Notes under the pieces: model-generated
Seen by the model: only the letters and a program-made list of their open reading frames with translations
Told to the model about the DNA's origin: nothing
Database searches by the model: none
Made by a program: the position numbers and the translations under genes
Shown here: positions 1,256 to 24,150 of the stretch, piece after piece
How the letters are laid out: each line of letters begins with the position of its first letter
Numbering within the stretch: the stretch's first letter is position 1
Source: Ascaphus truei
Taxonomy: Eukaryota; Chordata; Amphibia; Anura; Ascaphidae
Assembly (NCBI GenBank): GCA_036426205.1
Contig: WSYH01001918.1
Span: forward strand, 37,894-101,893
Length of the DNA stretch: 64,000 nt
Direction: 5' to 3'

Positions 1256-1623
1256 ACTAAAAACCCAACATATTGGTTCAAAGACAAATGTTACATATAT
1301 GTACTTTCTGTATCATGTACATGCATCTAGCTACTATTGAGGTTTCATGTGCATATTATTTGAAAATGATTACTCCCATTTCATCACATTTAATGTATGT
1401 TCCCTTATCTTTTAATTAAGAAACATTGTGGGTTGAGGAAAAAAACATTGTCCACATTATGAAAATAGTGCTTACACAGCCATATAATGAAATACACACA
1501 CACCTGCAAAAGTAATTATTTTTTTTCCCCATAAATTTCTGTGTCTATTTGAAAGTCTGGTTAACTCCCTGTTTGCATCAGAGTTAAAGTACGTGTGTAT
1601 ATGTAGATATATATATCTCTCTC

Positions 1624-1658
<35 letters not shown>

Positions 1659-2242
1659 GTCAGTAAAACCAAACTTTTAATGTGTGTGTATATTACAATA
1701 TTTAAGGGTTTATATGTAAAGAGGGATTTTTATATTGGTGTGATTTATTTAAAGGTTAAAATAATAGAGGCTTAAAAATTGTTATGGCCTATTGCATTGA
1801 CCTGTCTGGTAAATGTGATTTACCATCAAACAAGGTTTTTTTTTAATTTAGAAGGCCTGTAGTGTTACAACCAATAATATCTCTGTAATGCAGGTGTACA
1901 CAGAACATATTGATGGCAGTAAGTAGGCCTTGTATGAAACCTATTTAAATGGTGATAAACATGAGTGAATTAAGTAATAAACATTTGTTTTAGGCCAATA
2001 CTGTTATAGGCTCACAGTTAGTATAGTTCACAACTTAGGCCTGTATTATTAAAATCTGGTGTTTTCACAAGGAGGAAAATGAAGTGTATGTTTTCTGAAA
2101 ATACATCTATACCAGTTTAGATAGACAAATCATATATCATATATAGAGATATATATGTATAGATATGATAAGATAGGATATAATGTATATATATATTATT
2201 AGTATATATATATACTATATAGATACTAAGATATAGATACAT
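1256..2242. other. AT-rich non-coding interior of the Harbinger element
   Basis: No open frame with family likeness is seen. It holds an AT microsatellite near 1,627-1,656 and many short A/T runs. The lost end of the transposase would be expected here and is not found. Confidence 0.6.
1627..1656. repeat. (TA)n microsatellite
   Basis: About fifteen uninterrupted TA units. A second TA tract followed by CA units lies at 2,399-2,442. Confidence 0.95.
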
Positions 2243-2395
2243 CAGTGGTTGACAAATCACCAAAAAATCTACTCGCCACACAAAAAAATCTACTCGCCAC
2301 CTAGTACCAAACGTGTGCTGCTTGGGCCAATATTTACTCGCCCGGGGGTTAAATCCACTCGCCCAGGGCGAGCAAATGTATAGGTTTGTCGAACA

Positions 2396-2398
<3 letters not shown>
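2243..2398. mobile_element. Short hAT-like MITE nested in the Harbinger element
   Basis: The unit opens with cagtggttgacaaat and its far end read in reverse opens with cagtgttcgacaaac, a near-perfect ~15-bp terminal inverted repeat of hAT type (CAGTG start). Inside, the motif actcgcc occurs four times at uneven spacing. No clear 8-bp target duplication can be seen because the flanks are TA-rich. It has no coding capacity. Confidence 0.5.
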
Positions 2399-2444
<46 letters not shown>

Positions 2445-3079
2445 GTGTACATATATCCATACATACTACATATATATTAGTATACATTCACAGATATGTT
2501 CTTGAAACAAGAACACATAAATGATTAAAGGACAACATTACAATGGGCAAGCAAGGTGAAGGTAAGTAATGTTTTACACTTAATCCTGCTGTACACGGAC
2601 AAGAAAGATGTTTGCAGTTAAATAGATGTGTGTTTTTAATTGCATGTGAATAATATTAACATGCAATGATTACATCAAGTAACACACCCAAATAAAATGT
2701 TTTGCAGGTAAGTCAATGGCAGCTTCTCTAAACATAGCAACTGGCTCCTGGTGGACCATTACTGAACAGATGATTAATACATCAATATTAATAACACTAT
2801 TCATTAATTAGGACTGTTAACATTTCCAAAACTTCACGTGTACAAGAACATACTTGAAAATTTGGAAACAACAGGTCTTCAGCATACATACAATATTCAT
2901 TAGATAATCTGTAGTCAACAAAACAAGGCCAAAGACATATTTAGTGAATTATAACATTTATTATTTTTTTTCCTTTTGAGAGCGAGTAACAGGCCTGCTT
3001 GTTGTCTCTTGGATTTTCCTTTTTCGTTTACCAACAACTTTAGGCACAACAGAGCCACTTTGAGTGGCCTCTGGCACTT

Positions 3080-3390
3080 CACGGGCAGGGCTTGTGGCCA
3101 GTGACTGTTCACCGACAGGCCTTGTGGGCAGTGACTCACCGACAGGCCTTGTGGGCAGTGACTCACCGACAGGGCTTGTGGGCAGTGACTCACCGACAGG
3201 GCTTGTGGGCAGTGACTCACCGACAGGGCTTGTGGCCAGTGACTGTTCACGGACGGGGCTTGTGGGCAGTGACTGTTCACGGACAGGGCTTGTGGCCAGT
3301 GACTGTTCACGGACAGGGCTTGTGGGCAGTGACTGTTCACGGACAGGGCTTGTGGCCAGTGACTCACCGACAGGGCTTGTGCCCACTGAC
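3080..3390 (-). repeat. Minisatellite inside the Myb-like gene
   Basis: Units of 24 or 30 bp built on cttgtggccagtgactgttc are repeated about eleven times. On the - strand they encode alternating TSPVGESLA and TSPVREQSLP peptides. Long open frames on the + strand over this tract are a by-product of the repeat. Confidence 0.9.
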
Positions 3391-4499
3391 ACATGTGAGC
3401 ATGTTCGTAGACACTGCACAAGTGATGGTTGGTCCGTTTCATGTGTGGCTTTTTTTGTTTGTGTCCAAAAACTGGTCAGTAGTAACTGCTTGTGCTTCTT
3501 TGTTTTTGCCGCCTCCTTTGTAGGTGTCCGCTCCAGAATTTCTACAGATGGCAGCGGTAGGATGTTGTCAGGAACATGCACAGAACTTTCTGCTACTTGA
3601 CCGGTAACATCCCGACCTGGGGAATGAACATCAGATGCATGGGGTGAAAAATGAGTACCATGTAAAGATCCTTCCTGTGATGTGTTGAAGTTGAAATTTG
3701 GTACTGTAGTCATTCTCAAGTAATTCGCTTGGGTTTGCTGAACAACTAATGCTTCGAATGAGGTGTTGATTTTTTGCAACTGTTTAGGCTCTTCAATGAA
3801 GACTCTGTGGAGATGTGCCAATTGTGATATCGTTTCTTCCTGCAGTGAAATCATCCTTTCCAGCACTGTCATCAGATCAGAATGGCGACGATTTTCTGCT
3901 TCAACATTTTTTCCCTCAGAAGCTACTATTGCATCGTATGTGTTAGTTGATGGACGATTTGGCTGTATAACTGTTTCAATGGGAACCTCATCATGCTCAC
4001 TTGATTGTATTTCTGTGTCTATGGCGGCATCATCATCATCTTCATCATCATGTTCTAAAAATAAATGTACACATTATTAAATGGCATGTTAATCTCTGCT
4101 GTGTTACTATGTAATTATACTGTGTCATAAGTAACACCTAACATGTTTCCATACGTTTTATAACCTCACATTAAAAACTACCTTGACTTACGAATAATGT
4201 TTGGACTCAGTATGAAATATGAATGAATGAAAACTTGCTCTAAACTCACAACTCCTACATGATAGTTAACATCACTAACACAATACATGTTGCCTTACAC
4301 TTCATTTTCACTGACACTAAGTAATCCTATTTAAAGAACATGTGCAAAGCAAATAATGAACATGACAACATAACATATAGAAGTGCACATATTATATGGC
4401 CACCAACTGATACACTCACCTTCTAGGTGTGTTGAGCTGCATGACCAAGGTGAAGACACTTGTTCCGTCTCAGGTTACACATGTCCTCCAGGGGCAACT

Positions 4500-5890
4500 A
4501 TATATAACAATAACATTAGTTGGACATTTACATGTGTAAATATTGAACAAACAGTTATTGTATGTTCTGTATTTATGAGTACCTAACAGCATCAGTTCCT
4601 TAACCGAAAATATGTGTGTGAAAGTGAACATAAATAGTTGTAATAACAATGTACATGCCTGTGTACTTAGAACTTTTGAGTTCCCTAACATACAACATAC
4701 TATGTTTCTGCAGTAATGCGTGAGGATAAATTGATTTAATTTGTACATAAAAATCATATGTTGTGTAGTCATATCAGTATCATAATGTACATAACTATCA
4801 TGAGATGAACATTCACAATGGTTATCATGAAGGTGGTCATATTGCAAAAAGTTTTGTTTTTGGTACAGGATATGTGTGGTACATTAATAGAAGATGTGGC
4901 ACACCTGAATGTGGCTGTCACTCAACAAGACAACACATGCAGTGTGTGATAATGTGTCGTTGATAGCAGTTCAACTATAGATATGAGTGAACTAATGTGT
5001 GACGTACGGTTTGATAACTAATGACTTGTTGGGGCATTTAGTACCTAGAGTTAAGCTTTCAAATGAGTGTGATTAACTTCAGTTTTGCTAGTCAGGTTGT
5101 AAGAACGGTATTCCCTTCCCCAAAAACCCTAATCAGCCAGACCTTTCAATTACTTCAAACAGGTGAAAATGGTGTGAACTAAGTTGACCCTAAGATGACC
5201 CTGTAATTTGGTTGTGTGCTGAACCCCACCCCCTCTGTTGAAGTGTATGCTGTGATGACATATTCATTGCAGCTGCTTTAACACAATGGTAGAGGAGCTA
5301 AATAGTCGTCTGCAGTGTGCAAGTTATGAACACAATGACATAACATATGCTACGTGTGCCTCATTATGCTGTCTGTATATGACATAAAGCAAAAATTGAC
5401 CTTTTCATAAACAACTATACATGTGTTAGTGCAAGTGATGTTTGTAGGCCGTTGCATGCAATATATTCGATGCACGATTACAATAGGCAGTAATGTCGTG
5501 TTTGTAGGAGTAAAATAAATAAAATACACAATAATATTATACATATTTATGTTCTGTACCTATTGCTAGTAATAATTTCTCATTAGCATGTGTTACACAT
5601 GTGTACTACCCTGTTGTTCCCCATCTTTGCCCACCATCAATTGGTTCCACTGCAGCAATGCATTTTGGGAATTCACATGTAAATGACCACGCAATGGCAC
5701 GTGCTATATTAGTTACTGCTTTTAGTAGGACTACAACATATATGTATATTTTGAGATATATATATATATATACAGAATCAGACATATACATATATAGATG
5801 CAGGTATGCTTATATTGTGAAGACAGTATAAAAAGCAGCGGAAATATGCAAAATAACTGTAAGCAACGACACGCCTAGTACAGTAATATT
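4500..5890. other. Intron of the Harbinger Myb-like gene
   Basis: This AT-rich stretch lies between exons 2 and 3 on the - strand, with GT at 5,896-5,895 and AG at 4,499-4,498. It includes a short TA tract near 5,755-5,775. I see no other gene. Confidence 0.7.
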
Positions 5891-7334
5891 TCTCACCTGG
5901 TGGAAATTGTGAGGGATAAATTCCAATGTCCCGGTCACCGGCCAAGCCCTCCACGACGACGGGAAGTAATTTTCCCCAAAGCAGCTCCTCCAATGGAGTT
6001 AATATCAGACGTTGTGGTGTCGGGCCACCTCCAGTGCCAGAAGCATGCACGCGTTGGTCTTGTATTTTCTTTTTCAATTTTGACCGAATATCGTCAAATC
6101 TTTTGCGACAATTCCCCTTGTCCCTGACACGATTCCCACACGCATTGACACCAATTATTATTGTGTCCCACATTTCTTTTTTGCTTGATGAACTTGTCCG
6201 CGCTTGAAATAGAAACAAAATATATGATGTTAATTCATAATAATAGAAGCACCAGTTTCCTACACTGCTAGCTGTTCCAAGAGATAGCAAACATGCTGTT
6301 TTAGGTGTAATATGTGAAGCACATGAGCATTCACTACTAAACCTAGATATGTAAGCAAGCTTGCATTTATATTGTATGCAGTTATCGGAAATTGAACGCC
6401 TGTGTTTAGTTGTCCTTGTAACGCATGATAAAAAGCTGTGTTTCCACAATAATTAACATAGACAGATATTCTGTACCCATATTTGCATATGAACAAAAAT
6501 CACATGACCTAGGATCACATGTATTTGAAGAATAAATGGAAAGGTACACTTACCTACTAAATGTCCATAGAGACTGTCATGGTGCTCCAGAATCCCAGTG
6601 ACAAGAGCCCTATTTTCCTGGTCATTGAAGCGAGGATTACGTGGCTTCTCCACACGTTTCTTCCGAGCAGGTTTAGGCTCAGAGCTTGGCTGCTGCTGAC
6701 TGGACTCTCCTTGTTCCAATGGAAGAGACTCCAAAAGCTGGTCACCAGCAAGCACGCCACCACCAGACACCCCATCAGCAACTGAGCCACCAGCAGCACT
6801 CCCACTCCCAGCAACAGCACTCGCACTCCTAGCACCAGCACTCCCACTCCCATCAACAGCACTCGCACTCCTAGCACCAGCACTCCCACTCCCAGCAACA
6901 GCACTCACACTCCCAGCAACAGCACTCACACTCCCAGCAACAGCACTCACACTCCCAGCAACAGCACTCACAGAAACCGCACTCCCACTCCCAGCAACAG
7001 CACTCGCACTCCTAGCAACATCACTCCCCTGAACAGTACGTTCACTCTGACGCATACTCGCACGAGTAGCACTACCACTTCCACCAGCATCACTCTTCCC
7101 ACGCTTTGCGGGCATACTTACAGCACTCACAAAAAAACAGAAAAGAAATGTACAGCCAATCACACGAAACACTTCCACATAGAAAACAAGACAAAGATGT
7201 AAACAAAACAACAAAGGACAAAGCTCTCACAATACACAACAAGTCTCTCAGTCAATATGCAAATATTAAATCGCCCAGCTCTGTGCGTCTCTCTCTCTCT
7301 CACTCCCAACAACACAGAGAATGATTAACAGTAC

Positions 7335-7607
7335 ACGTTGCCTTTAAATATGGCGTGCTATCCAATACATGCTTGCATCGCCTGATTCAGCATGATTTTT
7401 GATTGGCCAACCTAACAGCACCCCGACACGCACGCCGATACACCTGTGTGTGATCGGCAAATCATCGTGAGAGTGGGCGGATTTGTTTTCGGTTTCATTT
7501 TGAAGACATTCGGCACTTACTGCATACGGAGAGGGAAAATCGCCAATAACATGACTAATCGGTAAGCTTGCCGATTTCACATAATCGTCGCTTACTGCAT
7601 GAGGCCC
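7335..7607. repeat. Right terminal region of the Harbinger element
   Basis: Read on the - strand the outermost bases are gggcctcatgcagtaagcga, followed by subterminal copies of atcggcaa and tgcagtaag-like motifs. GC content rises over the interior, as at transposase binding ends. The mate is not in the window, so the call rests on motif and boundary only. Confidence 0.6.
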
Positions 7608-7745
7608 TATGTCTTTGAACTACTGTACAGCTTGGAGCTTCATACAGCTGTCACAGCTCGCACCCTCCCCCCCCCCCTCATACACACGGCTCAAGTATTT
7701 CAACCTCTTATCAGCACCTCTGACAAACCATGCCACGCATGCGAA
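7608..7745 (+). repeat. ~135-bp dispersed repeat, second copy at 11,846-11,985
   Basis: The stretch starting tatgtctttgaactactg and ending ccatgccacgcatgcg recurs with few changes at 11,846-11,985. This copy abuts the Harbinger end exactly, so it may be the original flank into which Harbinger inserted. No coding capacity. Confidence 0.8.
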
Positions 7746-8154
7746 AGTGCGATAAGCTAAGCCCTTCTAACTTGCCTTTTCTTCAACACAACACTCCCCC
7801 CCCAACTAGTAATAAGATTAACATGTTGCGTGAGATTCAGGCCTAGCTAAGCAATCCCTTCTAAAACTGCTATTGTACTGTAATAAAACAAGTCAACTTG
7901 AAGTTCAAAGCTTATCAACAACACAACAACAGAGCCCTCCAACAGAGCCATTAATGTAAATGTACTGTTGCGTGATTATCTTGAGCTGGGCAGAAGACAT
8001 GTTGGATAATCCTTAATGCAGGAAAATAGTATTTTTCTACAGCATTTTATTGCATTATTAACAGAAATGATTGATTAAACAATAAAAATATAATAATTTT
8101 TATAAAGCATTTTTTGTTTTTATTTATTTTTTCCCAAACTAATGTGAAGTGCAA
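7746..8154. other. Non-coding, AT-rich
   Basis: No recognisable gene or repeat boundary. It contains a C-run near 7,796 and A/T runs before the inverted block at 8,155. Confidence 0.5.
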
Positions 8155-8465
8155 TTCTTTGTTTGTTGAACTGTTCATAAGAAATTCAGGTCTGCAATAG
8201 GGGTGTTCAAAAATAGATTTTATTTTTTAATGCATAATACAGTACAAAAATACAATACAGTAGCTCTGGTCTTTCTCTTCGTTATGGCATTGCGAGATGG
8301 GGAGAGAGGGGGCTGCAGCTCTGAAAATACAGTATTTCAAAAGATTTTTTTTAAACATTTTTTTTTTGGCAAACACGAATTTCTTTACAGTAACTACTGA
8401 GAGAGGGTGGGAGAGGGGGGGTTTGTGTAAGATACAGGCTGGTTTGTACATGAACACCGTACTAA
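8155..8465 (+). repeat. Left inverted block of the Tc1-type region
   Basis: This block matches, in inverted orientation, 13,860-14,215 over about 300 bp, including tcttcgttatggcattgcga and ggggctgcagctctgaaaat. On the - strand it includes an AATAAA signal near 8,222, so it also serves as the likely 3' end of the transposase gene. The same end sequence (aactgttcataagaatttca) terminates the forkhead units near 35,430 and 56,550. Confidence 0.8.
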
Positions 8466-8524
8466 TATCTTAAACTTCCCCCGACCCTTCCTTGTTTGCG
8501 GCAGTTCAGAAAATGTTTAAAACC

Positions 8525-9268
8525 TGAGACAGAACATGAAACACAGACAGAGCTCAGTGCACATCCAGTGAAACTTATGCACGGTACAGTGCCTAAATAT
8601 ATATGTATAAATATCTATTAAATAAAATGGTCTTTTAGTTTAACATTTTGGCCAAAGTGTTGTAAGTCCTTGAGCCACTACACGGCAGACCACATCTCAA
8701 GTGTCCCTAACACTAATATAAATTCTTAATAACCTGTACATTACCAGGAAGAATGATTTATAATAAATCTGTCAAAATTAGTGGCATAGTTCTAAGTCTG
8801 ATTGAAGCTCTTATTAACCTGTACATTACCAGGAAAAGCACTCTGTATTAGATTTGTCACAATCAAACTGCTAGCAAGCAAGCAAGTTCCCCTGAGAGTG
8901 GGAGATGCAATGGAGTGAGCTTTTAACCATTTAAATGTGGGAGGGAGTGAGATTCAATTAGGTAGGAGGAGCCACCCTCCAATCAGCTAAGACCAGCTGA
9001 ACAAGAATTGTAAAACATACAGGACATCTACACGTTCATATTGAACCCCCAAAATAACCACAACATATATATATAAGCATATTAGTGTCACAGAGGAGTG
9101 CTACTGAGCATGGCAATATATATTTAAAATCAGAGACAGAACATGAAACACAGACAGAGCTCAGTGCAGATCCAGTGAAACTTATACACGGTACAGTGCC
9201 TAAATATATATGTATAGATATCTAATAAATAAAAAGGTCTTTTAGTTTAACATTTTGGCCAAAGTGAA
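8525..9268. repeat. Direct repeat pair downstream of the Tc1-type transposase
   Basis: About 135 bp at 8,525-8,660 (acagaacatgaaacacagac through cattttggccaaagtg) recurs at 9,132-9,268 with few changes. Between them, the phrase taacctgtacattaccagga also occurs twice (8,730 and 8,814). The rest is non-coding. This looks like a local duplication inside the 3' region of the transposase transcript. Confidence 0.8.
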
Positions 9269-9345
9269 AATGAAAAGAAACAATAAATGCAGACATGGTT
9301 ATTTTTAGGGCCATACTTACCTGTTTCATACTTACCTGTGCCTTA

Positions 9346-11092
9346 TTACTTCCCTGAGGCCTGGCCATTACGTTGTATAACAATTGGCAACACAGTCGCA
9401 ATATGATCAATATATTTATTACATCTGTCTACGGTGAGTATATTGTTCCAGAAATTCAGTATCCCGTTTTCCAATTCTTCCTTTTTGGACGGTTTCCACA
9501 CTTTTCTGATATAATCCTTCAACTCATTCCATACCATTTCGATATGATTAAAATCTGGTGATCTGTAATACCGTAGGAGGGGAGAAAAAAGGTGAATTAC
9601 GTAGCAGATATACAGTAAACTATGTAAAACAATGAGAAAAGGTTACCCAACTTACTCCGCAAGCATCTTAACCCAGTTGATACCGCTGGCAAGAATGTGA
9701 GCCATCGACGCTGTGTGTTTCGGATCATTGTCCTGGAAGAACCGGTGACCAGATGAGAAATTATTCTTTATGTATTCAACAACATGTGTAATTATGTGAT
9801 CTTGGAAGAACGCTTTATTCATGATTCCTGGAAACAAGAAAAAAAATGTAACATTAGGGTACAAAATACTGAATACAGTACAGCTGTCCAGTGCGTAAGG
9901 CCACAGCATGTGGATTTGTGCATTATTTTACCCTCAAAGATAATGATGCATCCTGGTCCTTGTCTAGAGATGGCACCCCACACATGCATCTTCACTGGGT
10001 GCTTGGGACACGGCTTCAGAGATAGGCGTCCTTTTTTGTAGAATCCAAAATGGGCAAACCTCTCAAGCTCTACAGTTGTCTCATCTGTAAAGATGACATC
10101 ATTGAAACTCTCGCCACTTTCAATCCATGCCCGTGCCTGGCCCACTCTTTTTATTTTGTTGGCTTCCCTTATCATAGGATACGCTCTGTAATGACAAGGA
10201 AAAATGTTAGAGCCACTAAATGCTGGAAATACAGTACAGTATGATACTGTATTAGGAGGGACCCTAACATAAAAAAAAGAGGGCATGGGTGACGTACTGT
10301 ATACTGTACTTACTTAAAACGCCCATATTTCCATCCCAATTTCCATCTCATCAACCTGATACTGGTCTCTGGTGCTTTTATTTTGTGAGTAGCCTCTAGT
10401 GCATTCTTTACCCTTGTGGCACACGTCTCATCATTCGCGTCACTTATTTTGTCCACCAGAAGATTGTTCGTCCTAATGTGTAAAGAAAAACAGAACAATT
10501 TGTTACAGTAGGCAAATTAAGCATCCCAATAGCGCACAGATTTCTTACTGTCTGATGTTGCTGCTGCACTTATTGTACTGTGAGTACACTTTGGGCGCTA
10601 CAGTATGAATATATTAAATAAATAGCACACAAACTGCAGGATTATTAGTTCAAAGAAAACAGAATCTTTCGAAATGATTACACTATCACACCAACTCCTA
10701 AAGTACAGAAGACAGTACAGTACTGTATATTACTGTAGAGTTGACTTTAAAAGCTAGTGACTGATTGTAAGAATGGCAAAAATGTTATACTGTACAGTCG
10801 AAAGGCACTGTAAAGATTAATAAAATATTGAACTCAGGCATACAAGTACTGTACAGTTCAGTACAAGACGTTGGTAGAGTTATGGAGTACAATACAATAA
10901 GTACTCAGTAGTGACAGTCGGCTTTCTTTTGATGTTTTTTGCCTTCCCATGCGCATGATAACAAACAGTGCTTTTTGCTAAACTGAGGCCCGAAGCAGCT
11001 AACCAGCGGTGGATCTGTGCAATGCTCTGTCCATTCTGGTACATATCCTTTATTCTCAAGCTGAGGTCTTTTGAAATCCTTTTCTTTGGCAT
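9346..11092 (-). CDS. Tc1/mariner-type transposase with four introns, intact frame
   Basis: Exons on - are 11,092-10,905, 10,472-10,314, 10,185-9,932, 9,827-9,656 and 9,562-9,346. Every junction is GT-AG and phases agree, giving 329 residues with no stop. Exon 1 has a first helix-turn-helix ([19 protein letters not shown], then IHRWLAASG). Exon 2 has a second DNA-binding helix set. Exon 3 holds the first catalytic Asp (VIFTDETTV) and the HVWGAIS motif. Exon 4 holds the second Asp ([11 protein letters not shown]). Exon 5 holds the Glu ([15 protein letters not shown]). Spacing between the last two is about 32. Most Tc1 transposases are single-exon, so the splicing is unusual though known in some vertebrate IS630/Tc1 relatives. 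The start is the ATG before [13 protein letters not shown]-domain gene diverges from it 241 bp away. Confidence 0.85.
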
Positions 11093-11333
11093 CGCTGCTT
11101 CTTTGGCATCGCTGCTGATAGAAAAAAATTGCAAGCACACACAGAGCAATTCGATGTGAATTTGATGTGTATTGAATGTGCATTGAATACACAAAATTGC
11201 AAATTGCATAGACTCTCACACACTGATCTCTATCTGAACTTGCTCTTGTCCAGATACTACATTGTGCATTCGTCCATCTGTTTCCATGGATCGCTTCTGA
11301 TTCTACAGACGCAGGAACCATCTTTCTTCTGCT
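11093..11333. promoter_or_regulatory. Divergent intergenic region between transposase and the lysine-rich/BEN gene
   Basis: The two start codons face away from each other across 241 bp, so both genes probably share this promoter region. It is rich in short direct and inverted copies of aattgcaaattgc and gtgaatttgatgtg. No firm TATA box can be named. Confidence 0.4.
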
Positions 11334-11516
11334 GTGCCGGCCAAGCGAAAGGCAGAAGCTGTTTCCCAGCCAAAACCTAAGCGAAAACCAAAGCAGAGTA
11401 AAGAAAATGTTCCGAAGGCTCCAAAGGTTAAGACCCCTGGGCCTTATTTTGTTAAGAAGAAGATCGGCGCACTCAACACTCCTCAGTCGCTCGAGGAGGA
11501 CTTTTTCCAAGTATAG
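11334..11516 (+). CDS. Lysine/proline-rich first exon of the gene divergent from the transposase
   Basis: The frame opens with MPAKRKAEAVSQPKPKRKPK, a bipartite-looking nuclear localisation stretch, and continues to a PYFVKKKIGALNTPQSLEED motif. It runs into a possible donor (caa/gtatag) before the stop. The segment from aaagaaaatgttc to gctcgaggaggac recurs at 11,990-12,085 in the same orientation, there leading into the 57-bp repeats. A related stretch also occurs at 17,725-17,800. I infer it is the 5' part of the BEN-domain gene at 12,480-13,509; an inserted LTR fragment now separates them. Function unknown beyond likely nuclear import and DNA contact. Confidence 0.5.
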   Translation: MPAKRKAEAVSQPKPKRKPKQSKENVPKAPKVKTPGPYFVKKKIGALNTPQSLEEDFFQV

Positions 11517-11589
11517 TCTTTTTGCTGCGTGCGCGGTCATGAGATTTCCCTCGCGCCGGGTATTTCTGGGTTGCTGCCTTTTTCCTCAG

Positions 11590-11831
11590 GCTATATCAGC
11601 ATTCAGGTTCAGAAGTGCTTTCCCCTGTGTCTTGCAAGCAGCGTGCAGTTTCTTCTGGCAGGCTCAAGACATCTGTTCCTACTCAGGAAATCTCCCTTCC
11701 TGTTTCAAGAGCAGGCTTTTCTAATAAATATAATCAGCCAGATGGTGTTGGTTAATTAACTACCTGCAGTTAACCACCACACTGCTGGATTAGAGGCACA
11801 TTTCCTGAACAGGGATATCTCCCCTGTTACA
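11590..11831 (-). mobile_element. LTR fragment, same family as 15,930-21,452
   Basis: Read on -, it starts TGTAACAGGGGAGATATCCC and follows the 5' part of the LTRs at 17,551 and 21,452 for about 240 bp, with the same CAGGC..CTTTTT and GCAGTGTGG-type landmarks. The far end is lost, so it is a truncated LTR. It interrupts the gene that starts at 11,334. Confidence 0.7.
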
Positions 11832-11845
11832 ATGACCTGTTGAGA

Positions 11846-11985
11846 ATATGTCTTTGAACTACTGTACAGCTTGGAGCTTCAAACAGCTGGCACAGCTCGC
11901 ACCCTCCCCCACCCCCCGCACACACGGCTCAAGGATTTCAACCTCTTATCAGCACCTCTGACAAACCATGCCATGCATGCGCAAG
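11846..11985 (+). repeat. Second copy of the 135-bp dispersed repeat
   Basis: It matches 7,608-7,745. Here it lies between the LTR fragment and the second copy of the lysine-rich exon segment, where it ends at gcgcaagt. Confidence 0.8.
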
Positions 11986-12100
11986 TAAAGAAAATGTTCA
12001 GAAGGCTCCAAAGGTTAAGACCCCTGGGCCTTATTTTGTTAAGAAGATCGGCGCACTCAGCACTCCTCAGTCGCTCGAGGAGGACTGTACAAGTCAAGTG
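11986..12100 (+). pseudogene. Duplicate of the lysine-rich exon segment
   Basis: About 95 bp match 11,398-11,495 closely, lacking one AAG codon in the KKKIG stretch. The frame continues through SLEED into CTSQVESRFSPCT and then the 57-bp repeats. This copy may be the native joint to the repeat exon, with 11,398-11,985 added by insertion and duplication. Confidence 0.55.
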
Positions 12101-12114
12101 GAATCCCGATTCTC

Positions 12115-12735
12115 TCCTTGCACCCCCACCCCCGCTCACCTGCTCCACAACCCATTCTCGACGCTGCTGCTCTCCTGGCAACCCCCGGCTCACCTGCTCC
12201 ACAACCCATCCTTGACGCTGCTGCTCTCCTGGCAACCCCCTGCTGACCAGATCCACAACCCATCCTCTATGCTGCTTCTCTCCTGTCAACACCCTGCCGA
12301 CCAGATCCACAACCCATCCTCTACACTGCTGCTCACCTAGCAACCCCCGGCTCACCTGCTCCACAACCCATCCTTGATGCTGCTGCTCTCCTGGTAAACC
12401 CCCGGCTCACCTGCTCCACAACCCATCCTCGACACTGCTGCTCCCTGGCAACCTTCGGCTCACCTGCTCCACAAACCCTGGCTTACCTGTCAACCCCCGG
12501 TTCACCTGCTCCACAACCCATTCTCGACGCTGCTGATCTCCTGTCAACCCCTTGCCGACCTGCTCCACAACCCATCCTCTACGCTTCTGCTCTCCTTGCA
12601 ACCCCCGGCTCACCTTCTCCACAACCCATCTTTGAGGATGCTCTCCTGGAAACCCCCAGCTCACCTGCTCCACAACCCATCCTCGACGCTGCTGCTCTCC
12701 TGGCAACTCCCTGGTCACCTTCTCCACCACCCACC
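12115..12735 (+). repeat. 57-bp minisatellite, about eleven units, partly coding
   Basis: The unit is built on ctcacctgctccacaaccca and ctgctgctctcctggcaacc. In the frame that runs into the BEN gene it encodes SPAPQPILDAAALLATPG-type 19-residue repeats, open from about 12,480 to 12,735. Upstream units carry one-base indels (for example near 12,383 and 12,440) that shift the frame. The open frames on the other strand are shadows. Confidence 0.85.
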
Positions 12736-13509
12736 TACGCAGATGTCTACAGCACAGAGCAAAATATTGATCTTCTTTTGGAGACCATGTTGAGAATGGA
12801 TATGCGCATGGAGAAAATGGAAAGTAACATGGAGAAGATGGCAAGTAACATGGAGAAGATGGCAAGGAACATGGAGAAGATGGAAAGGAAGATTGTGGGG
12901 ATGTATTCTTTCCTGCGAGTTCCTGTCCCTTTCCCTGTATGTTTGACGCAGGAGCAGGAGGGTGGCCAGCATGACGTGACCTTCACGCTTCCCTCACCAA
13001 GCACCCCACGCTCACCCCATCCATCAGAATACGTGAGTCTGTATGCCTTTGAGGACGAGGTGACAACCCCAATAAGGCCACAACAGGAGGAAAGCATCCT
13101 CCCACACCGCCTACCGTCGCCCGCTGCCAGAAGTACACCAGCACCCAGGCTTCCAACAATGCCGGATATCATCTTGACCGACCTGACCCAGCACGTCCCG
13201 GAGAAATACAAGACTGAATGTGCTGGTGTAGCCCAGAAATTTGCCCTGGCAATATTTAAACACCACGTCAGTTTTGAGATGTACAGCGATTGGACCCACA
13301 GTGTAAATTATGAAGGAAATAAAAGAAAGAATACTCTGCCAGCAAATTTAAGAAAGACCATTTTGAATGAAGTGGAGCGTTATTTCCGTGTTACCTCTAC
13401 AGTTATGAGAGCTATGAGAGACACTATAAATGGCCTGTTGAGGCATACAAGGGCTCGTGCTTGCAGTGGCACCCCTCTTGCTAACGACTTTTCCCAAACT
13501 CTACAGTAG
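12480..13509 (+). CDS. Repeat/coiled-coil protein with probable C-terminal BEN domain
   Basis: The frame enters from the 57-bp repeats, giving Pro/Ala/Leu 19-residue repeats, then YADVYSTEQNIDLLLETMLR. Next come five near-identical heptad-like MEKM units (first in-frame ATG at 12,787), which form a short coiled coil. A Pro/Ser-rich linker follows. The last ~110 residues (VPEKYKTECAGVAQKFAL, WTHSVNYEGNKRKNTLP, TILNEVERYF, MRAMRDTINGLLRHTR) follow the helix pattern of BEN domains, which bind DNA or chromatin partners and occur in transposon- and virus-linked proteins. The BEN call rests on pattern, not on a search. The gene is convergent with the forkhead gene and divergent from the Tc1-type transposase. 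The true 5' end is uncertain. Confidence 0.6.
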
Positions 13510-13859
13510 TGCAAACGTTCTTCATCCCCCCCCAAAAAAAATACAGTAGCTTTGTTTTATTGTTTAATGTGTTTAATCATTTTCTGTTTGTTTTTTATTG
13601 TTTTGAAATATTGATATTGTCTAATCATTTATTTCTGTCAATCAGGCACAGGTAAGTATGATACTGTATAGAAATTCGTTTGTGGGAAAATAAAATAATA
13701 ATAAATAAAAGGTGTTTATAAATGTGTTTTTTTTTAAAAAAAATCAAACTAACCATGTCTGTTTATTTACACTATTCAGGATTTTCAGCAGCTGCAGTGA
13801 AAAAAGGATGGGGGGTGGGGGGGTGTAAAATTACAGTACTATGTTTACTGTAAGTACAA
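13510..13859 (+). other. 3' untranslated region of the BEN-type gene
   Basis: AT-rich and non-coding. It contains gcacaggtaagtatg near 13,645, also found just past the transposase stop near 9,330 on the other strand, another link between the two ends. Confidence 0.45.
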
Positions 13860-14215
13860 ACAAGCCTGTATCTTACACAAACCCCCTTCTCCCACGCTCT
13901 CTCAGTGTTCCAGTACAGTAACTTTATAGAAATCCTGTTGGGGAAAAAAAAATGTGTTTTTTTTTTTACAAATCTTTTGAAATGTTGTTATTGTTTAATC
14001 ATTTTTACCAGTAATTACCAGTACTTGTTTCTTTCTACCATATTTTCAGAGCTGCAGCCCCCTCTCTCCCCCCCATCTCGCAATGCCATAACGAAGAGAA
14101 AGACCACAGCAACTGTTTTATTTGTAATAATGTATGCATTAAAAAATAAAAGTATTTTTTGACCGACACCCTATTGCAGACATGAAATTCTTATGAACAG
14201 TTCAACAAAGCACCG
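13860..14215 (-). repeat. Right inverted block of the Tc1-type region
   Basis: Inverted match of 8,155-8,465. On + it carries a poly(A) signal (aaaaaataaaag near 14,140) for the BEN-type gene. On - it continues the 3' region of the forkhead unit, so here the block joins two genes tail to tail. Confidence 0.8.
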
Positions 14216-15168
14216 CACTTCACATGCAGTACAGTACAGTACGGAAAAAAAGGGCATTAAATTTTTTTAAAAAATTGTTCAAATGAGACGTACAGTACAG
14301 TACCAGTAAAAGAAAACAGTATTTACTGTTGCACAAGTAGAAAGCATTCAATAATAATTAATATATACAGTATGTAATAAAAGATATACATTTTTATTTT
14401 TGGTGTTTATAAGAAAAGTTGCGCAATGCAACGTACTGTAAAACAGTAGTGGTGATGACTGTACTATACAATGTAAAAAAATAATTTAATATTAAAACAG
14501 CAGCATACAGTACTGTACAGTTTCAGGTATTCTATAAAGCTCACAATTGTTCTATAGATAGATAAAAATGGCACTGTCACTAAATGTTTGCCCACTTGCC
14601 AAACAGTGCGAAAGCAACTTTTAAAATAAGCGATAATAGAGGTCCATCCAAATCTCTTCTTTTGTCTTTTTGCGCTGGATGTCAAAGTTTTGTTTCTGGG
14701 GAAAAACAAAAAAATATGCTATTATTATTGGTATTGCGCATGCGTCATGTCGCTTCATTGGGAATTAAAGCAGCCATTCAACCATTTTGGACGATGAGAA
14801 CAAACTTCTGATTGGCTCCGACTCTTGAGCCCCATCCTCTCCCTACATTTGTAAGCTGCAGCAGCGTCACGGACATCAGCGGCCAATCAAATCATTCTTC
14901 AAAGTGCACTCAACAGAGAAAAATCCCCTCCACTCGCATACAGTAAAGTAATGTATTGTATTGATGCACATAAGTACAGTAGTACTAGCACAGTAATGTA
15001 CTGTAAAATACATACAGTACTACTGTATTGTTTTAAAAATAATTTTTTTTTGACACATGGCAGCTTCAACTGCAGCTAAAAACTTAAGACTATCATGTAC
15101 ATTATACTGTAGTACAGTGTAAAACAGTGTAGTACATTACTGTATACTGTACCTTCTTTATAAGCTTT
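14216..15168 (-). repeat. 3' part of forkhead unit, TACAGTACTGTA-rich
   Basis: Non-coding, with many copies of the palindromic TACAGTACTGTA-type motif. It matches 34,443-35,430 in inverted orientation. The same motif is dense in the introns of the Tc1-type transposase (10,260-10,880) but rare in the Harbinger, Penelope-like and Gypsy regions. Confidence 0.75.
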
Positions 15169-15169
15169 G

Positions 15170-15797
15170 CCAAACGGGTGGTGATGACTCACTGTGACTC
15201 CTCAAGTCTGCATTATAGTTGACAGGTGACAGCTGGCCTACTACACTTTTAGTTGATAGCTGATGATGCTGGAAAACATTTTGGTACTGGTACATGCAAG
15301 CTTGCTGGTACCTTTTACACGAAATCCTGCTCAGGCTGGAAATTTTCCAAGTATTCTGGCGGGGACAGGTACAAAGGATTGCCGTTCACAAGGTTATCAC
15401 TGACGGTCGGACCGGACACCGGTGCTGGTGGTGCTGTTGCCGGCACATTGCTGGATTGGGATTGACGAATTTTGTATGGGTTAAAACCCACCTTTCTTCT
15501 TTTGAGATTGCCATGATTAAACATACTGTGAAATTCTGGCATGACACCCCAATACTTTCAAATCTCTCCGGCAGGAGGGGCAAAACGAAAAAAACACTGA
15601 TAGTTACTTAGGGTTTTTCTTATCGCACGCTTCCACCCATGAACGTCAGGTGAAAACTTGTAAAAATCGTAGTTCGATATTAAATATTCATATATTTCAG
15701 ATACAGTCGCCTTCTTTTCTGCTGCAGCATTAATCGCTGAATATATAAAAAACGCATAACTACAGTCAGGTTTTTTATACATCTGTGGTGTAGCCAT
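15170..15797 (-). pseudogene. Forkhead-domain protein, copy 1
   Basis: From the ATG at 15,797 the frame encodes YKKPDCSYAFFIYSAINAAA, then VSEIYEYLISNYDFYKFSPD and GWKRAIRKTLSNYQCFF, the order and spacing of helices 1-3 of a forkhead (winged-helix) DNA-binding domain. YWGVMPEFHSMFNHGNLKRR then matches the wing-2 end (G-YW-..-MF-.GN.+RR). The rest is Pro/Ser/Gln-rich. This copy has TGA where copies 2 and 3 have Cys (just before YWG) and a frameshift with a stop in the C-terminal part (near 15,320). It sits inside a repeat present three times in the window, so it is element cargo or a multiplied host-derived gene, not a normal FOX locus. Confidence 0.8.
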
Positions 15798-15929
15798 AAT
15801 GTCCACTCAGCAATTGTGCGGGGAAAGAATGTTAAAAAAAAGGCACACATTGAGTATTTTAATGCTTTTTATTAAGAACGCCTAATTTGAAAACGTCTTC
15901 GTAAAAACAAGGTCAATTCACAATGGGCC
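15798..15929 (-). other. 5' flank of forkhead copy 1 and left target duplication
   Basis: Matches 33,690-33,816 in inverted orientation. It ends at gggcc (15,925-15,929), the target duplication of the LTR element. Confidence 0.75.
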
Positions 15930-16056
15930 TGTAGACGGACGTTCACAGAGGTACACAATTGTAGTCGTTTTAATGAGAAATTATAATAGGCTTTATTGTG
16001 CCTGTTCCTTTTCATCAGGAAATTATACAAACACAGGGGGAACAAAGCTTCCATTC

Positions 16057-17101
16057 TGTAAGGAATCCGCTCCGCGGTTTACTGGTTGCCTTACCTTGCA
16101 GACCGGTGCAGTTCTGGAACAGCTCTCCTGATGTTTGCTGCAGCCTGGATTCACTCACCAAAGCTATACACACTCCCTCTGGTATCTACTGCAGCTGTGC
16201 AGCCTATCACTGCAACCTAGACTTGCATTCACTCATTGGAGCAGTACCTTCACACCCCCGCTGGGGATTGGCCCGCTGGCCTTTAAGTACTGCTTTCCCA
16301 CAATGCTCCCTGCCGAGCATAGTCCTAACCGGATGTCACCACCTGTTCTGCCACAAGCTCCTGCTTGTTCTCCTGTGCTGAAGCGGAGGTTCCGTCCTGC
16401 ATCCTTCAGCTTCCTTCAAGCTCCCACTTGTTCTCCTGTGCTGAAGCGGAGGTTCCGTCCTGCGTCCTTCAGCTTCCTTCAAGCTCCCGCTTGTTCTCCT
16501 GTGCTGAAGCGGAGGTTCCGCCCTGCGTCCTTCAGCTTCCTTCAAGCTCCCGCTTGTTCTTCTGTGCTGAAGCGGAGGTTCCGTCCTGCGTCCTTCAGCT
16601 TCCTGTTCTCCTGCGCTGAAGCAGAGGTTTCGTCCCTGCATCCTTCAGTCTCCTGAATTCCTGCACTGAAGCGGAGGTTTCCCTGTGTATCTACAGCTTC
16701 CTGGTTCCTGGGGCCTACTCTTTCCCTAATTTAGATAGGCCGTGTCCTGGTTCCTGCGCTGCTACAGAGGATTCCCTAGCCCGCTCAGGACTCTTGCGCT
16801 GTAGCACTGGTTTAACCGTGCAGCTAGGCGGTGTGTAAATTTGGTCTGTCTTCCACCTCCTGAGACCAGTACCATGGGCCGTGGTTGCCGAACTCCTACT
16901 TGGACAATGTTTATTCTGACGTCTCCTGTCCTGACCCTGGCTTGTACAACGATGATGCTGTCTTCTCCAATCCTGATCCTGCTACGTATGACTACGAACT
17001 TCGCAATCCGGATCAGCCTGCGCGGTCTAAGGTCGGTGCTTTTACAACCCCACCTCAGCCTCGCGGTCCGACCCTGGTTTGTGCCGAGCAGAACCGTGAC
17101 A
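16057..17101 (+). mobile_element. Solo LTR (1,045 bp) nested in the 3' LTR
   Basis: It begins TGTAAGGAATCC, ends CCGTGACA, and is flanked by cattc on both sides (16,052-16,056 and 17,102-17,106). The sibling LTR at 20,884-21,452 reads straight across the site. A TATA-like tttaagta lies near 16,283 on +. No internal retroviral region remains, as after LTR-LTR recombination. The family is not identified; length and ends fit Gypsy. Confidence 0.88.
16360..16660 (+). repeat. 60-bp tandem repeat inside the solo LTR
   Basis: About four and a half units built on tgtgctgaagcggaggttcc and ccttcagcttccttcaagct. Open frames over it on either strand are repeat by-products. Confidence 0.9.
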
Positions 17102-17938
17102 CATTCACTTGGGAGTATTTCTAGTGCAATCCTTGCAATTAGTTCACATCTCCATTAGTTAAGCATTTCTCCCATCCCAAACACATAGCATGCAAATAAG
17201 CAGATATAAGCAGTCTCTTAATAATGAAAGTCTTATCTGTTTATCAGCTGTAGAGTAAGCTTCTCTGCTCTCCTGGAACCGCATCTGTGCGTGCACAGAA
17301 AAATACCAGCATCAAGGTTTAGAAGTCTTATTGGGTGTCTTGCAATCAGCTCTGCTGTGTGGCTGGCAGAACTCAAGACATTGTGGTGTCTCCAAAGGTC
17401 AGCTCTCAGTCAGAGCTAAAGAGAGTCAGTTCCTGTCTCAAAGGCAGGCTTTTTGTAAGCAATGTAATCAGGCAGGTGGTGTTTAGTAATTAACTTCCCA
17501 CACTGCTAGATTAAAGGAACATTACTGAACAGGGATAAGTCCCCTGTTACATACCTCCACTGTTTGTGGGAAGCTCGGGCTTACCACGGCCAAAGCCTAT
17601 CCTTCCACTCTCATTCTAGATATCTCTGTGACTTGAATGAGAGTGGATGGAGGAAGAGAACCCTCTGTCCCGCTGGGATTGGAGCCCTTTCTCCAGTTTA
17701 TTTTTGTCTCCTCCCGAAGATGCTTGAGATCAGCACTCCTCAGTCGCTCGTGGAGGACTTTTTCCACGTAAAGTCTTTTTATCGCGTGCGCGGTCTTGAA
17801 TTTTCTGTTGCATCGGGCACTCCTCTTTTTGTAGACAAAGTGTATGGCAACAGTTGTAGAGCAGTTAGGACTAGCCCTTAGAGTTTTCTGCTCTTGAAGT
17901 GGTCTTTCTGCAGCTTCTCCACACCACGGAGTCGCCAG

Positions 17939-18199
17939 TTACGCTTCTTCAGTTAAGGATTTTTCTGGCTTTGATTCTGCACTCCTACCTCTGTTTGTTG
18001 CCTGTTGGGCAGCTGTAGGTTTGGCTAGTGCTCTCTTTGGTTGCTCAAACTTCGTAATTTTGTTTTGAAGTTGCGTGGAGTCCCCAACTCTCACTGTACC
18101 CTTGTCCTTATGGGCATTAGTTACTGTGGGATACTGGTGCTTGGGCAGAGCCAATACCTTTTTCCATATTGGAGGAATCTGTATCAGAGTCTCCTTCAT
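17939..18199 (-). CDS. Small basic frame overlapping the coiled-coil gene by ATGA
   Basis: It starts MKETLIQIPPIWKKV and has 86 residues, mostly basic and Gln/Thr-rich at the end. Its ATG overlaps the stop of the coiled-coil frame (atatga near 18,199), which could mean termination-reinitiation or a frameshift continuation. No family recognised. It may be chance. Confidence 0.35.
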   Translation of the reverse strand: MKETLIQIPPIWKKVLALPKHQYPTVTNAHKDKGTVRVGDSTQLQNKITKFEQPKRALAKPTAAQQATNRGRSAESKPEKSLTEEA

Positions 18200-19938
18200 A
18201 TTCTGGAGCAGTCTTTCTGTCTCTCCAGCTCTTGCTCCAGTTTCTGAGCCTTCTCACGCTCCCTCTCATACAGAGTAACCTGGTATCGAAGCTCCGCTTC
18301 CAACGATGCTCTGAAGACATGCAGCGTGGCCTTTAGCTCCTCATACTGCTCTGTGGGGACGTACTGGGTATTCAGATGTTCCTGCAGCGCTTGTACCTCT
18401 TTAGCAGCCTGCAGTTTTTCTTCCTGTAGCATTTGCTGCTTCTCCTCAGCATACTGGAGGTGTGTACGCAGACCTTGCAGTTGGTTCTGCAGTCGGTGCT
18501 CTGCGTCAAACTTTTCCTTGACTTCTTCTGTTAACTGAAAATTTTCTTCTTTCAGTTTTAAGTTTTCTCTTTTTAATCTTGAACTTTCTCCTTTTTCAGT
18601 CTCTGTATTCTTCAGGGCTTCTTTGCAGTCCTCCTTCCATTTACGCACATCTGCTTTGAGAATGACAATCTCCTGGTGTGAGACTTCCTTCTCTAGGTTG
18701 AGGGTCTGAAGCTCCTTCTGAGAGACTTTGAGATCTGTATCAAGATTACCAATAGTTTCTTTAGCAATATACAGCTCCTCAGTGAGACTGTGTAGTTCCT
18801 TTCTGGAAACTTCCAGGTCTGTGCGTCAGCTGTTGGTCTCATGATGTGAGGCATCCAGCTCTATACGAAGAGTGTGAAACTCTTGCTGGAAGACTGTCAT
18901 CTGCTTCAGTGCCTCCTCATACTTCCACTTTAGCGTAGCCACCATTTTAACAGATTGGCTCTGCTTTTCATCCATGGTGGAGATAGTAGCCTTTGCAGTA
19001 TCTAGCTCAGTCTTGAGATCCTCCAATTCGGTCTTGGCCGCAGAAGAAATTGCGATCACAGTCTTCTGTAGCTCAGCATTATTTATTCTCTCCCTTCCTA
19101 ATTCTTCACAGAGCAGATCACAGTCATGCCTGGCAATTTTCAGGACGTCTTCAGGGCTGGTCAAGTGATCGTCACTCACTGGTTCTGGCTCCGCTTCCCT
19201 GGGATGACAAGTTGAGGGTTCCTCACTGTTGGCACCGGACAGACACTTCTTTGGGGTACACGACTTCTGCCTTGGGCCCTTTGGATATTTGGTTAACCGT
19301 GGGACGAATTCTCCATTTTCTCTAGGCTGCAGGGCAACTCGGTCCCCCTTTTCCTCCACAGGATCTGCGTACGTGTCTGTTCCTTCCACGGTAAGTGAAG
19401 AACTGCTTTTCTTTTTCTTCCTTTTTGATTTGGATGACACCGTCCCTTCAGGGATACTGGGGTCTCCATCTTCATTTGAAGTTTTAGCAGCTTCATTATA
19501 TACGCCAGGCTTTTCTTGCAGCTGCTTTATCTGACAGAAATATTTGGTGATCCACTGCTCCCGCTCTGTCTCCTGCTGATCATATTCGTCATCAAAGGGA
19601 GCGGTCTTTTCTGTTCGTGCCGAGTTCAGGCACCCCCACCATTCTTGGGGTGTTTTGTGGGTGTGACTCAGTTCGGGTTCCCCGTAAGAGATGTCTTCCT
19701 CTTTATTGGACTGGAAGGGCCACTCTTCCGTGGGGTAGGGTTCATTAAAGGAACGCTGCATCTTGTCCTCCATTTTTAGGCTATCAGGTGTAATTTTCTT
19801 CCTGACCTCAGGAGGCGCTATTGCAGCTGTTGCCACTGTATTTGCTAGAACCCCCAATTGTGGCAGTCCTACAGATGGGCATATTTTGCTTGTAGAGGTC
19901 GTAGCTCTCACAGGCATCTCTGTAGACTTTTCTTTCAT
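18196..19938 (-). pseudogene. ~580-codon coiled-coil protein, sole cargo of the LTR element
   Basis: The ATG at 19,938 follows a T-rich tract (+ strand). Residues ~1-160 are mixed and acidic, with WITKYFCQIKQLQEK. A basic run KSKRKKKKSSSS near residue 170 looks like a nuclear signal. From ~residue 265 to the end the sequence is nearly continuous heptad-type helix (CEELGRERINNAELQKTV; RLKRENLKLKEENFQLTEEV; EREREKAQKLEQELERQ). One in-frame TGA at 18,826-18,828 splits it, and the same frame stays open to 18,196. No zinc knuckle, protease or RT motif is seen. A Gag-like assembly role through the coiled coil is possible but is my inference. Similarity searches may return generic coiled-coil hits such as golgin or paramyosin. 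Confidence 0.7.
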
Positions 19939-20863
19939 GGATAATGTTTTTTTTTTTTTTCAATATCAGCAGTTCTGTGCATGCATTTTCTTTTATCAGG
20001 TATACAAGTTGTGCAGCGACTAGGTAAAAAAAAAATTCTATTTGCTATACACCATTTACTTTCTGGGTGCAATCCCTCCGCTTCAGCAACAGAATTTGGT
20101 TTTCTGTCTTAGTTCAGTAATTTTCAGTCTCATCTTTGGGTATTATAGCATTCACACTTCACTCTTTGGGTGTCTGTTTTGCTCCCAAGATAATAGGCAT
20201 ACATTTTTTTACTTGCAGAAAAAAAACATTCTTTGCAGTGGACTATTTCTTTCATTCCCGGCAGGGTGACTCAACACTCAGCAATTGGCTTTGAAAAACC
20301 TTTTTCCTTTATAGAACAATTTTACACTCAGCATTTGTTTGCTAAAAATTCCCCTGCTTCAGCACAGTCTTATATCAATTTTCACACTTTTCTGCATATA
20401 CTCCATTCACAGCTGGTAGTCCTATGCGGTGTGGTTACCTTTAGCTGCAAAATCAGTACCACTCGTGGGTCACCATCTGTATTCACTGCTTCAGCGAAAC
20501 TTTTGAAAACAACAAACACCTATCCCTTTTCAAGGGTTGACTCACTTCTTGAACCCTGACTATGGCTGGAAGGCAAAACCCCTATTTCAATGACCGTATT
20601 ACACTTTGTGATAGGCAATTAAAGGTTTACCTGCTTCAGCTGTCTCTTGGGATTGGGGAAAAGAGTCCATCCGTGGTTTTTGTAAAGTCTCAGTGCAGTG
20701 TAAGTTTCAGTGGTGTGTACCCCTTTAACTCTGCCTCTGCTGCATGAGAGGTTTTTTTTTGTTTGTTTTTTTTTCAAGTTGTTTAGACTGTTTGTAGGCA
20801 AAAAGCATAACAAAAAATTTCACATAAAAACTCCGGTCCTTTTTAACTACAAAGACACCTCTT

Positions 20864-20881
20864 ATCCCACTTCTAACACCA
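20864..20881 (-). promoter_or_regulatory. Primer binding site, tRNA-Leu type
   Basis: On - it reads TGGTGTTAGAAGTGGGAT, two bases inside the 5' LTR. The 3' end of vertebrate tRNA-Leu (cccacttctgacacca) is complementary with one mismatch. Confidence 0.7.
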
Positions 20882-20883
20882 AA

Positions 20884-21452: not shown

Positions 21453-21457
21453 GGGCC

Positions 21458-22685: not shown

Positions 22686-22758
22686 TGTAAATACAACTGT
22701 ATGCTCATCTGCATGTCTTAGGCAGGTCTGCAACCCCGCCTTTCACCATTATCACCCA
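22686..22758 (+). repeat. Host repeat flank and left Penelope target duplication
   Basis: tgtatgctcatctgcatgtc through accattatcaccca also occurs at 30,203-30,275. The last 14 bases (22,745-22,758) are repeated at 29,892-29,905 on the far side of the Penelope-like element. Confidence 0.85.
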
Positions 22759-24052: not shown

Positions 24053-24150
24053 AATTGTAAGTACATAAATAAATTGACATGCTATGATGAACTGATCTGT
24101 ACAATTAAATTAGACCAAATAACAAAGAAATATCTATTTATTGTGTTAAA

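Follow-up and report, generated by a model that had tools for sequence, protein, structure and literature searches.

The 64,000-nucleotide stretch of Ascaphus truei contig WSYH01001918.1 analysed here (the window) raises the question of whether a Tc1/mariner transposon can carry genes besides its transposase, and which ones. Tc1/mariner elements are the textbook one-gene transposons, Tc1-like members measure 1.3-2.4 kb, and introns are unusual in the group. A first-pass annotation of the window had proposed a two-gene element of this superfamily, a spliced transposase with a divergent BEN-domain partner, enclosed by two long inverted blocks. Searches of the 2.82-Gb genome and comparison of copies uphold the association of these two genes and revise both the limits of the element and its gene count, as a third gene, encoding a forkhead protein, lies on the minus strand inside the right part shared by the copies, just beyond the interval originally proposed. 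We consider it likely that the window holds one copy of a high-copy, three-gene Tc1/mariner transposon of about 8 kb, with the BEN and forkhead proteins as its own accessory proteins.

The transposase was correctly described at the outset as intact and of the Tc1 type. Its five exons are joined by GT-AG junctions throughout, with the frame kept, and encode a stop-free protein of 329 amino acids:

11092-10905, minus strand: exon 1, with the start codon and the N-terminal part.
10472-10314, minus strand: exon 2.
10185-9932, minus strand: exon 3, with the first catalytic aspartate (D).
9827-9656, minus strand: exon 4, with the second catalytic D.
9562-9346, minus strand: exon 5, with the catalytic glutamate (E) and the stop codon.

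The protein matches the Pfam family DDE_3 (3.7e-13) and aligns with Sleeping Beauty over 208 residues (1.9e-13) with the catalytic triad D, D, E in register; the exon 1 region gives a weak match to the PAI subdomain of Sleeping Beauty (E 0.014). By hand count the second D and the E are 32 residues apart, against 34 in Sleeping Beauty, and we therefore file the element in the Tc1/mariner superfamily, on the strength of its transposase type, TA sites and inverted ends, and not in the DD34E subgroup. It does not belong to the Harbinger elements, having a DDE_3 transposase and no three-base target repeat, and with five exons and three genes it departs from the single short intronless gene usual in Tc1/mariner. 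Introns being unusual there, and the window protein being the sole one demonstrated to be complete over its whole length once spliced, one could suppose that the element is mobilised by a transposase encoded elsewhere and that its own gene is a relic. We regard this as very improbable, as the window retains D, D and E in a complete frame and the TA flanks fit this type of transposase.

Where, then, does the element end? The inverted blocks first taken as its bounds do exist:

8155-8465: left arm, internal inverted block (arm pairing, BLAST and genome search).
13860-14215: right arm, internal inverted block (arm pairing and BLAST).

Six arm pairs link 8,162-8,449 with 13,854-14,209; five of them are 28-49 nucleotides long and 89-97% complementary, and the sixth is 42 nucleotides long and 79% complementary. 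Gapped BLAST agrees, aligning 8,142-8,329 with 14,225-14,041 at 84% identity and 8,334-8,449 with 13,983-13,854 at 75%. The flanks of the inner unit consist of simple, AT-rich sequence on either side. The blocks are nevertheless internal, since related copies run beyond both of them to other inverted ends. This emerged from genome searches in which a subset of the candidates was scored: 40 of 1,019 for the left block, 150 of 8,980 for the BEN gene and 150 of 13,725 for the window forkhead piece. The left block is highly repeated; all 40 scored candidates match, the 39 others at 91-96% over nearly the whole length. From the top-scoring left-block matches we chose 19 copies as 10-kb stretches (named below by their L numbers; a twentieth stretch, L017, of 101 bases, was set aside), so that the sample is biased toward well-kept left parts, and several right ends fall outside the stretches examined.

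In all 19 copies the element extends outward past the left arm. The outer edge of the right arm is crossed by eight and none ends there; in the remaining 11 the right part is deleted, cut earlier or outside the stretch examined. Eight copy alignments extend to 15,929, and that of L015 to 15,926. At this point the window copy is split, and it resumes at 21,453-21,820. The outer ends carry the inverted repeat CTGATGCAGCGGCCGTTATTCGAAC with TA outside, and in the fullest copies these TA-flanked ends are about 8 kb apart. Scanned with up to 6 substitutions tolerated, both terminal repeats are present in eight of the 19 copies (L009, L012, L015, L018, L020, L023, L026 and L028), and TA stands outside both ends in seven of these eight. 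In those seven the flanking three bases are not repeated; TA alone repeats. Exact terminal repeats occur in the window at 21,794-21,818, 33,318-33,342 and 54,468-54,492 and were absent from shuffled sequences. The right-hand features of the window are as follows:

15930-21452: nested insertion that interrupts the window copy at its right end (the L023 alignment halts at 15929 and resumes at 21453, with a 5-base overlap).
21453-21820: right end of the window copy, with the terminal repeat at 21794-21818 followed by TA.
33312-35493, minus strand: second right-end fragment with a forkhead gene, its frame broken by stops.
54462-56609, minus strand: third right-end fragment with a decayed forkhead frame and an outer flank nearly the same as that of the 33312-35493 fragment.

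These observations bear on the possibility that the original two-gene proposal was right after all, the inner blocks being true ends and the forkhead part with the outer ends being another element, invaded before the family spread. The inner arms are long and inverted, as such a reading would have it, and the second and third forkhead fragments of the window halt near 14,138-14,140, inside the right arm. These two fragments share nearly the same outer flank, however, and therefore look like one duplicated event. The inner edges lack a TA pair (TA at 8,140-8,141 on the left, GC at 14,226-14,227 on the right), whereas the outer ends are TA-flanked, and all 19 copies continue past the left arm while none stops at the outer edge of the right one. 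In addition, the arms are 68-84% identical to each other, against 91-96% between copies in the left block; as the arms differ more from each other than the copies do, the inner-arm arrangement is older than the spread of the family. We thus find a composite of this kind decidedly unlikely and keep to the three-gene element with TA-flanked outer ends.

Do the three genes travel together? The first-pass annotation had suggested searching the genome for copies with both of its genes, and these were found. A scored BEN match lies 0.9-5.3 kb downstream, on the same strand, of 15 of the 40 left-block matches. A scored forkhead lies within 12 kb of 39 of the 150 BEN matches, always downstream and on the opposite strand, and at 1.4-5.5 kb in 37 of them; BEN-forkhead pairs in any other arrangement numbered zero, as did pairs in controls shifted by +200 kb, -200 kb, +500 kb and +1 Mb. 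Both linkage counts include the window's own copy and are lower bounds, given the subsets of candidates scored. L009 and L023 contain both ends together with matches to the five transposase exons, BEN and forkhead, the element occupying positions 369-8096 and 1724-9789 of the respective oriented stretches. Over the 19 copies, transposase exons are matched in 18, BEN in 11 (a BEN match of L015 outside its right end being left out of this count) and forkhead in eight, and internal deletions are common. Copies diverge by 2-6% from the family majority. The fullest ones run in the order TA, terminal repeat, left part, inner arm, transposase (minus strand), short divergent gap, BEN gene (plus strand), inner arm, forkhead gene (minus strand), terminal repeat, TA. 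The left part holds tandem units of about 0.6 kb that vary in number (L024:1-2480, oriented, and other copies), and a partial unit is also present at 11,832-11,986 of the window. A short relative of 1.76 kb occupies 2424-4181 (oriented) of L028. Its two terminal repeats belong to a variant type (CTGATGGGA...), TA flanks it at either side, and it contains neither transposase nor BEN nor forkhead gene; it is likely a non-autonomous derivative.

The plus-strand partner is broken in the window by an in-frame TGA at 12,244-12,246, ahead of an open part of 420 amino acids:

11301-11513, plus strand: basic N-terminal part.
12247-13509, plus strand: main open part, 420 amino acids, with 18-residue repeats, a Met/Lys/Glu-rich stretch and the BEN domain.
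13165-13470, plus strand: BEN domain.

Its Lys/Arg-rich start, tandem repeats and BEN fold were all anticipated in the first reading, with the correction that the repeat unit is 54 nucleotides, or 18 residues, not 19. The coiled coil proposed there corresponds to the Met/Lys/Glu-rich stretch, which looks coiled-coil-like, a judgement made purely by eye. An intron in the BEN frame was considered and dropped, because in L009 the frame runs uninterrupted from the basic part into the repeats. The nature of the C-terminal domain had been given as probably BEN. On the evidence of a structural model this domain has the BEN fold, the top eight rows of a second structural comparison with the BEN-region model all being BEN domains; a first model (predicted local distance difference test score 58.6) and its fold search had found nothing. 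The Pfam BEN profile, PF10523, misses the domain: none of the seven members matched up to E 10, nor did the majority form, and the six matches of this profile in the genome are all at places resembling host genes. The BEN region of the window shares 4-18% identity with BEND3, BANP, NACC1 and BEND6 over the structure-match rows. A divergent BEN subtype in zebrafish, DUF4806, is mentioned in PMC11075544. Protein database searches with the BEN region and with the forkhead protein returned nothing; ordinary forkheads were absent too, and we take that database to hold few or no animal sequences. On the minus strand of L015:524-979, a different repeat that adjoins copy L015 encodes a relative of the BEN domain at 35% identity; a BEN-type gene thus seems to be present in another repeat family as well.

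The third gene matches the Pfam family Forkhead (PF00250) over 15558-15806 with E 3e-16 and 59.8 bits, the curated cut-off being 27, and its closest solved structure is FOXL2 (5.8e-16):

15158-15797, minus strand: forkhead gene with its ATG at 15797, broken in the window copy by a stop after 79 codons and later changes.

In L009 the gene is an intact single-exon frame of 210 amino acids. All 150 scored genome candidates for the window forkhead piece match, and a stop-free frame of 213 codons was read by eye in 10 of these rows, with the same value at the place of L009. As in cellular FOX genes, the domain extends through wing 2.

Is this forkhead confined to one transposon family? Repeats carry forkhead domains in large numbers here: a genome search with the Pfam Forkhead profile gave 12,894 first-look candidates. 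Among the 150 scored, 21 at 107 bits or more resemble host FOX genes, and 129 score 73-94 bits. Twenty of these 129 were examined; they are 32-48% identical to the window forkhead over the matched stretch, fall into several clades (the clade letters A-F, like the FOX class names of host loci, were assigned in this analysis); several copies retain a single-exon frame some 210-250 codons long. In an unrooted tree, in which the window branch is long, 21 repeat-borne forkheads including that of the window cluster together, separate from 17 FOX domains (16 from this genome and FOXL2), with a support of 100/100; 20 of the 21 host-like loci had been fetched, and L064, L065, L066 and L068, whose domain is seemingly cut by an intron, were omitted. 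FOXL2 as the sole source was considered and dropped: it is the closest solved relative of clade A, and the closest solved relatives of clades C and D are HNF-3-beta/FOXA2 and FOXK1, respectively.

The neighbours of these genes suggest a second kind of transposon. In clade C (L069 with L076) a Myb/SANT-like frame lies upstream on the same strand (PF13873, 1.4e-5), the putative later exons of this gene ending 434 bp before the forkhead frame. In L038, also of clade C, a 47-residue piece of Harbinger-type transposase faces the end of the forkhead gene; it is 68% identical to the transposase at window 322-1,152. From the Myb/SANT-like neighbour and this transposase piece, clade C at least appears to belong to Harbinger-like elements. 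A long upstream frame of similar make-up in clade D gave no Pfam match. In L070, the block enclosed by the inverted arms yielded no transposase when its six frames were scanned with Pfam. It is quite possible, and we propose it tentatively, that the forkheads constitute a mobile accessory module that arose by one FOX capture, diversified in transposons and became a working part of the transposition or expression machinery of at least two unrelated transposon types, Tc1/mariner and PIF/Harbinger, the recognition helix being changed in each clade.

Are the accessory genes maintained by selection? For the forkhead domain, the pooled ratio of nonsynonymous to synonymous polymorphism (pN/pS) within the family stands at 0.40 in the coding frame, compared with 1.02-1.22 for three control readings, and the figure for variants shared by at least two copies, relative to neutral, is 0.48 (1.83 and 1.23 in shifted frames). 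Deeper comparisons give a clearer picture: the ratio of nonsynonymous to synonymous divergence (dN/dS) is 0.19-0.34 between subclades of another repeat-borne forkhead clade, D, and 0.38-0.70 in six close pairs. The divergence rows cover three of seven clade C members (L040, L045, L048 and L032 were left out, the search pattern being missing), four of four in clade D and two of two in clade E; clade B, L034 and L047 were excluded.

Several results weigh against our main reading of the element. Without CpG (cytosine-guanine) sites the forkhead shared-variant figure becomes 0.71, on 17 changes. That of the transposase is 0.65 (1.65 and 0.82 in shifted frames) and rises to 1.09 without CpG sites. 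For BEN the pN/pS within the family is 1.02 and the shared-variant figure 0.88 (1.14 and 0.85 shifted), again 0.88 without CpG sites; on these small counts the shared-variant test detected no constraint on BEN or the transposase. The dN/dS of 0.19-0.34 between clade D subclades comes from four pairs, two of them over 239 nucleotides only, whose synonymous differences of 0.52-0.71 approach saturation. In the window's clade the recognition helix retains eight of 19 FOXL2 residues, and the four element end sections counted show no enrichment of the usual forkhead core sites. Neither the family transposase nor BEN was found with clades C, D and E (one 10-kb stretch each, E < 0.1) or, for two clade B forkheads, in 3.5-kb pieces taken at the distance where the two genes would be expected; one of these pieces contains a different, Tc1-like fragment. 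Finally, the tree is without domains of the FOXK, O, P, M, H and N classes, so the source of the repeat-borne forkheads could fall among these.

The forkhead gene, and perhaps BEN, could alternatively be passengers caught by chance from the host or from other transposons and without a role in the element. Such an origin would agree with the lack of core-site enrichment in the ends, with the absence of purifying selection on BEN within the family, and with the fact that among 11 aligned forkhead copies, some in incomplete rows, L009 alone keeps the whole frame to the end. It accounts poorly for the long frames kept by other repeat-borne forkheads, which are 32-48% identical to that of the window, for the low clade D ratios, and for the fact that genes from another type of transposon also have this kind of gene as a neighbour. 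We judge the passenger explanation unlikely and retain the BEN and forkhead proteins as accessory proteins of the element. Because the recognition helix shares only those eight of 19 residues with FOXL2, the target of the element forkhead probably differs from the usual FOX site.

How such an element might operate can be outlined as follows. The spliced transposase would cut at the terminal repeats and insert at TA, and the divergent gap between transposase and BEN gene may serve as a shared promoter. The BEN and forkhead proteins, as the element's own accessory proteins, would assist transposition or expression. By analogy with Harbinger ORF1/Myb, the most likely role of the BEN protein is to bind within the element and to join its ends or recruit chromatin factors; that of the forkhead protein would be to open or activate the chromatin of the element so that it can be transcribed or excised. 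The gene for the forkhead protein would descend from a cellular FOX gene, in the simplest case through a single event, and would then have been retained by transposons under selection at the protein level and exchanged between transposon types.

The window copy itself is damaged: its left end is gone, nested insertions lie within it, and neither the BEN nor the forkhead frame is intact. Its further features are:

7608-8514, plus strand: left internal part of the element, common to copies, cut at 7608 in the window copy.
8515-9264: insertion limited to the window copy, with 147-nucleotide direct repeats at its ends (8513-8659 and 9120-9266).
11480-12086: additional sequence in the window copy, in which the start of the BEN gene is partly duplicated.

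Left of 7608 there is no match to the left parts of L023, L024, L009 and L013, and the left terminal repeat was not found in the window within 3 mismatches. Copies spanning the 8515-9264 insertion jump from 8515 (8458 in L025) to 9265, and the partial duplication (11,397-11,502 and 11,984-12,086) is absent from fetched copies spanning that place. The nested insertion at 15930-21452 carries 258-nucleotide direct repeats (17102-17359 and 21006-21263) that are 98% alike and is probably an element of the long terminal repeat type. Between 14640 and 14910 the window has CCAAT-like boxes and, near 14,695 on the minus strand, a splice-acceptor-like junction that is kept in most copies compared; this region may be another promoter or exon belonging to the element. 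The segments 22677-31279 and 43946-52447 are repeated inside the window, in direct and inverted orientation, and are 96-100% alike in parts.

Adjoining the cut-off left side of the element, at 322-1152 on the plus strand, is a transposase frame that we take to be of the Harbinger type, and an apparent divergent, spliced Myb/SANT-like gene extends from 7226 to 2961 on the minus strand; it matches PF13873 over 5778-6452 (5.2e-6), and its final portion contains tandem repeats. Pfam scanning of 1,201-5,702 beside this Harbinger-like pair gave no match at 0.01, and the pair therefore shows no forkhead there.

Compared with known systems, the element resembles Sleeping Beauty-type Tc1 transposons in its DDE_3 transposase, the TA at its insertion site and its short inverted ends, but differs in its length of about 8 kb, its five exons and its two extra genes. 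The parallel with the transposase/Myb pair of Harbinger elements, drawn from the start, is apt, as forkheads of the same group also adjoin Harbinger-type genes in this genome. Like PIF/Harbinger, the element has a gene of a DNA-binding type as helper beside the transposase, and a Harbinger-like pair adjoins it in the window; unlike PIF/Harbinger, it has a Tc1-type transposase, a TA instead of a three-base site, and BEN and forkhead helpers, although a forkhead gene seems to be present in some Harbinger-like repeats of this genome as well. Two proteins of a Harbinger element are reported in PMC2836001 to be required for movement. Repeat-borne forkheads are set apart from cellular FOX genes by their many copies, their altered recognition helix and their separation from the 17 FOX domains. 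The TBE/Tec elements of ciliates have a transposase of a related superfamily and additional genes in one element. They are likewise multi-gene, in ciliate hosts and with other extra genes, which are not known to be related to BEN or forkhead. No report of a forkhead-bearing DNA transposon, a BEN-Tc1 combination or a mariner with two open reading frames was found in the open-licence literature, and the family may already be named in Repbase.

If our reading is correct, the genome of Ascaphus truei contains a high-copy Tc1/mariner family that encodes its own regulators, a BEN-fold protein and a forkhead protein. Such a family would supply forkhead and BEN domains in many diverging natural versions, and its repeats could inflate the counts of forkhead genes in a genome of this kind. 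It would also open to experiment the question of how a transposon becomes dependent on a transcription factor of the developmental type and hands it on.

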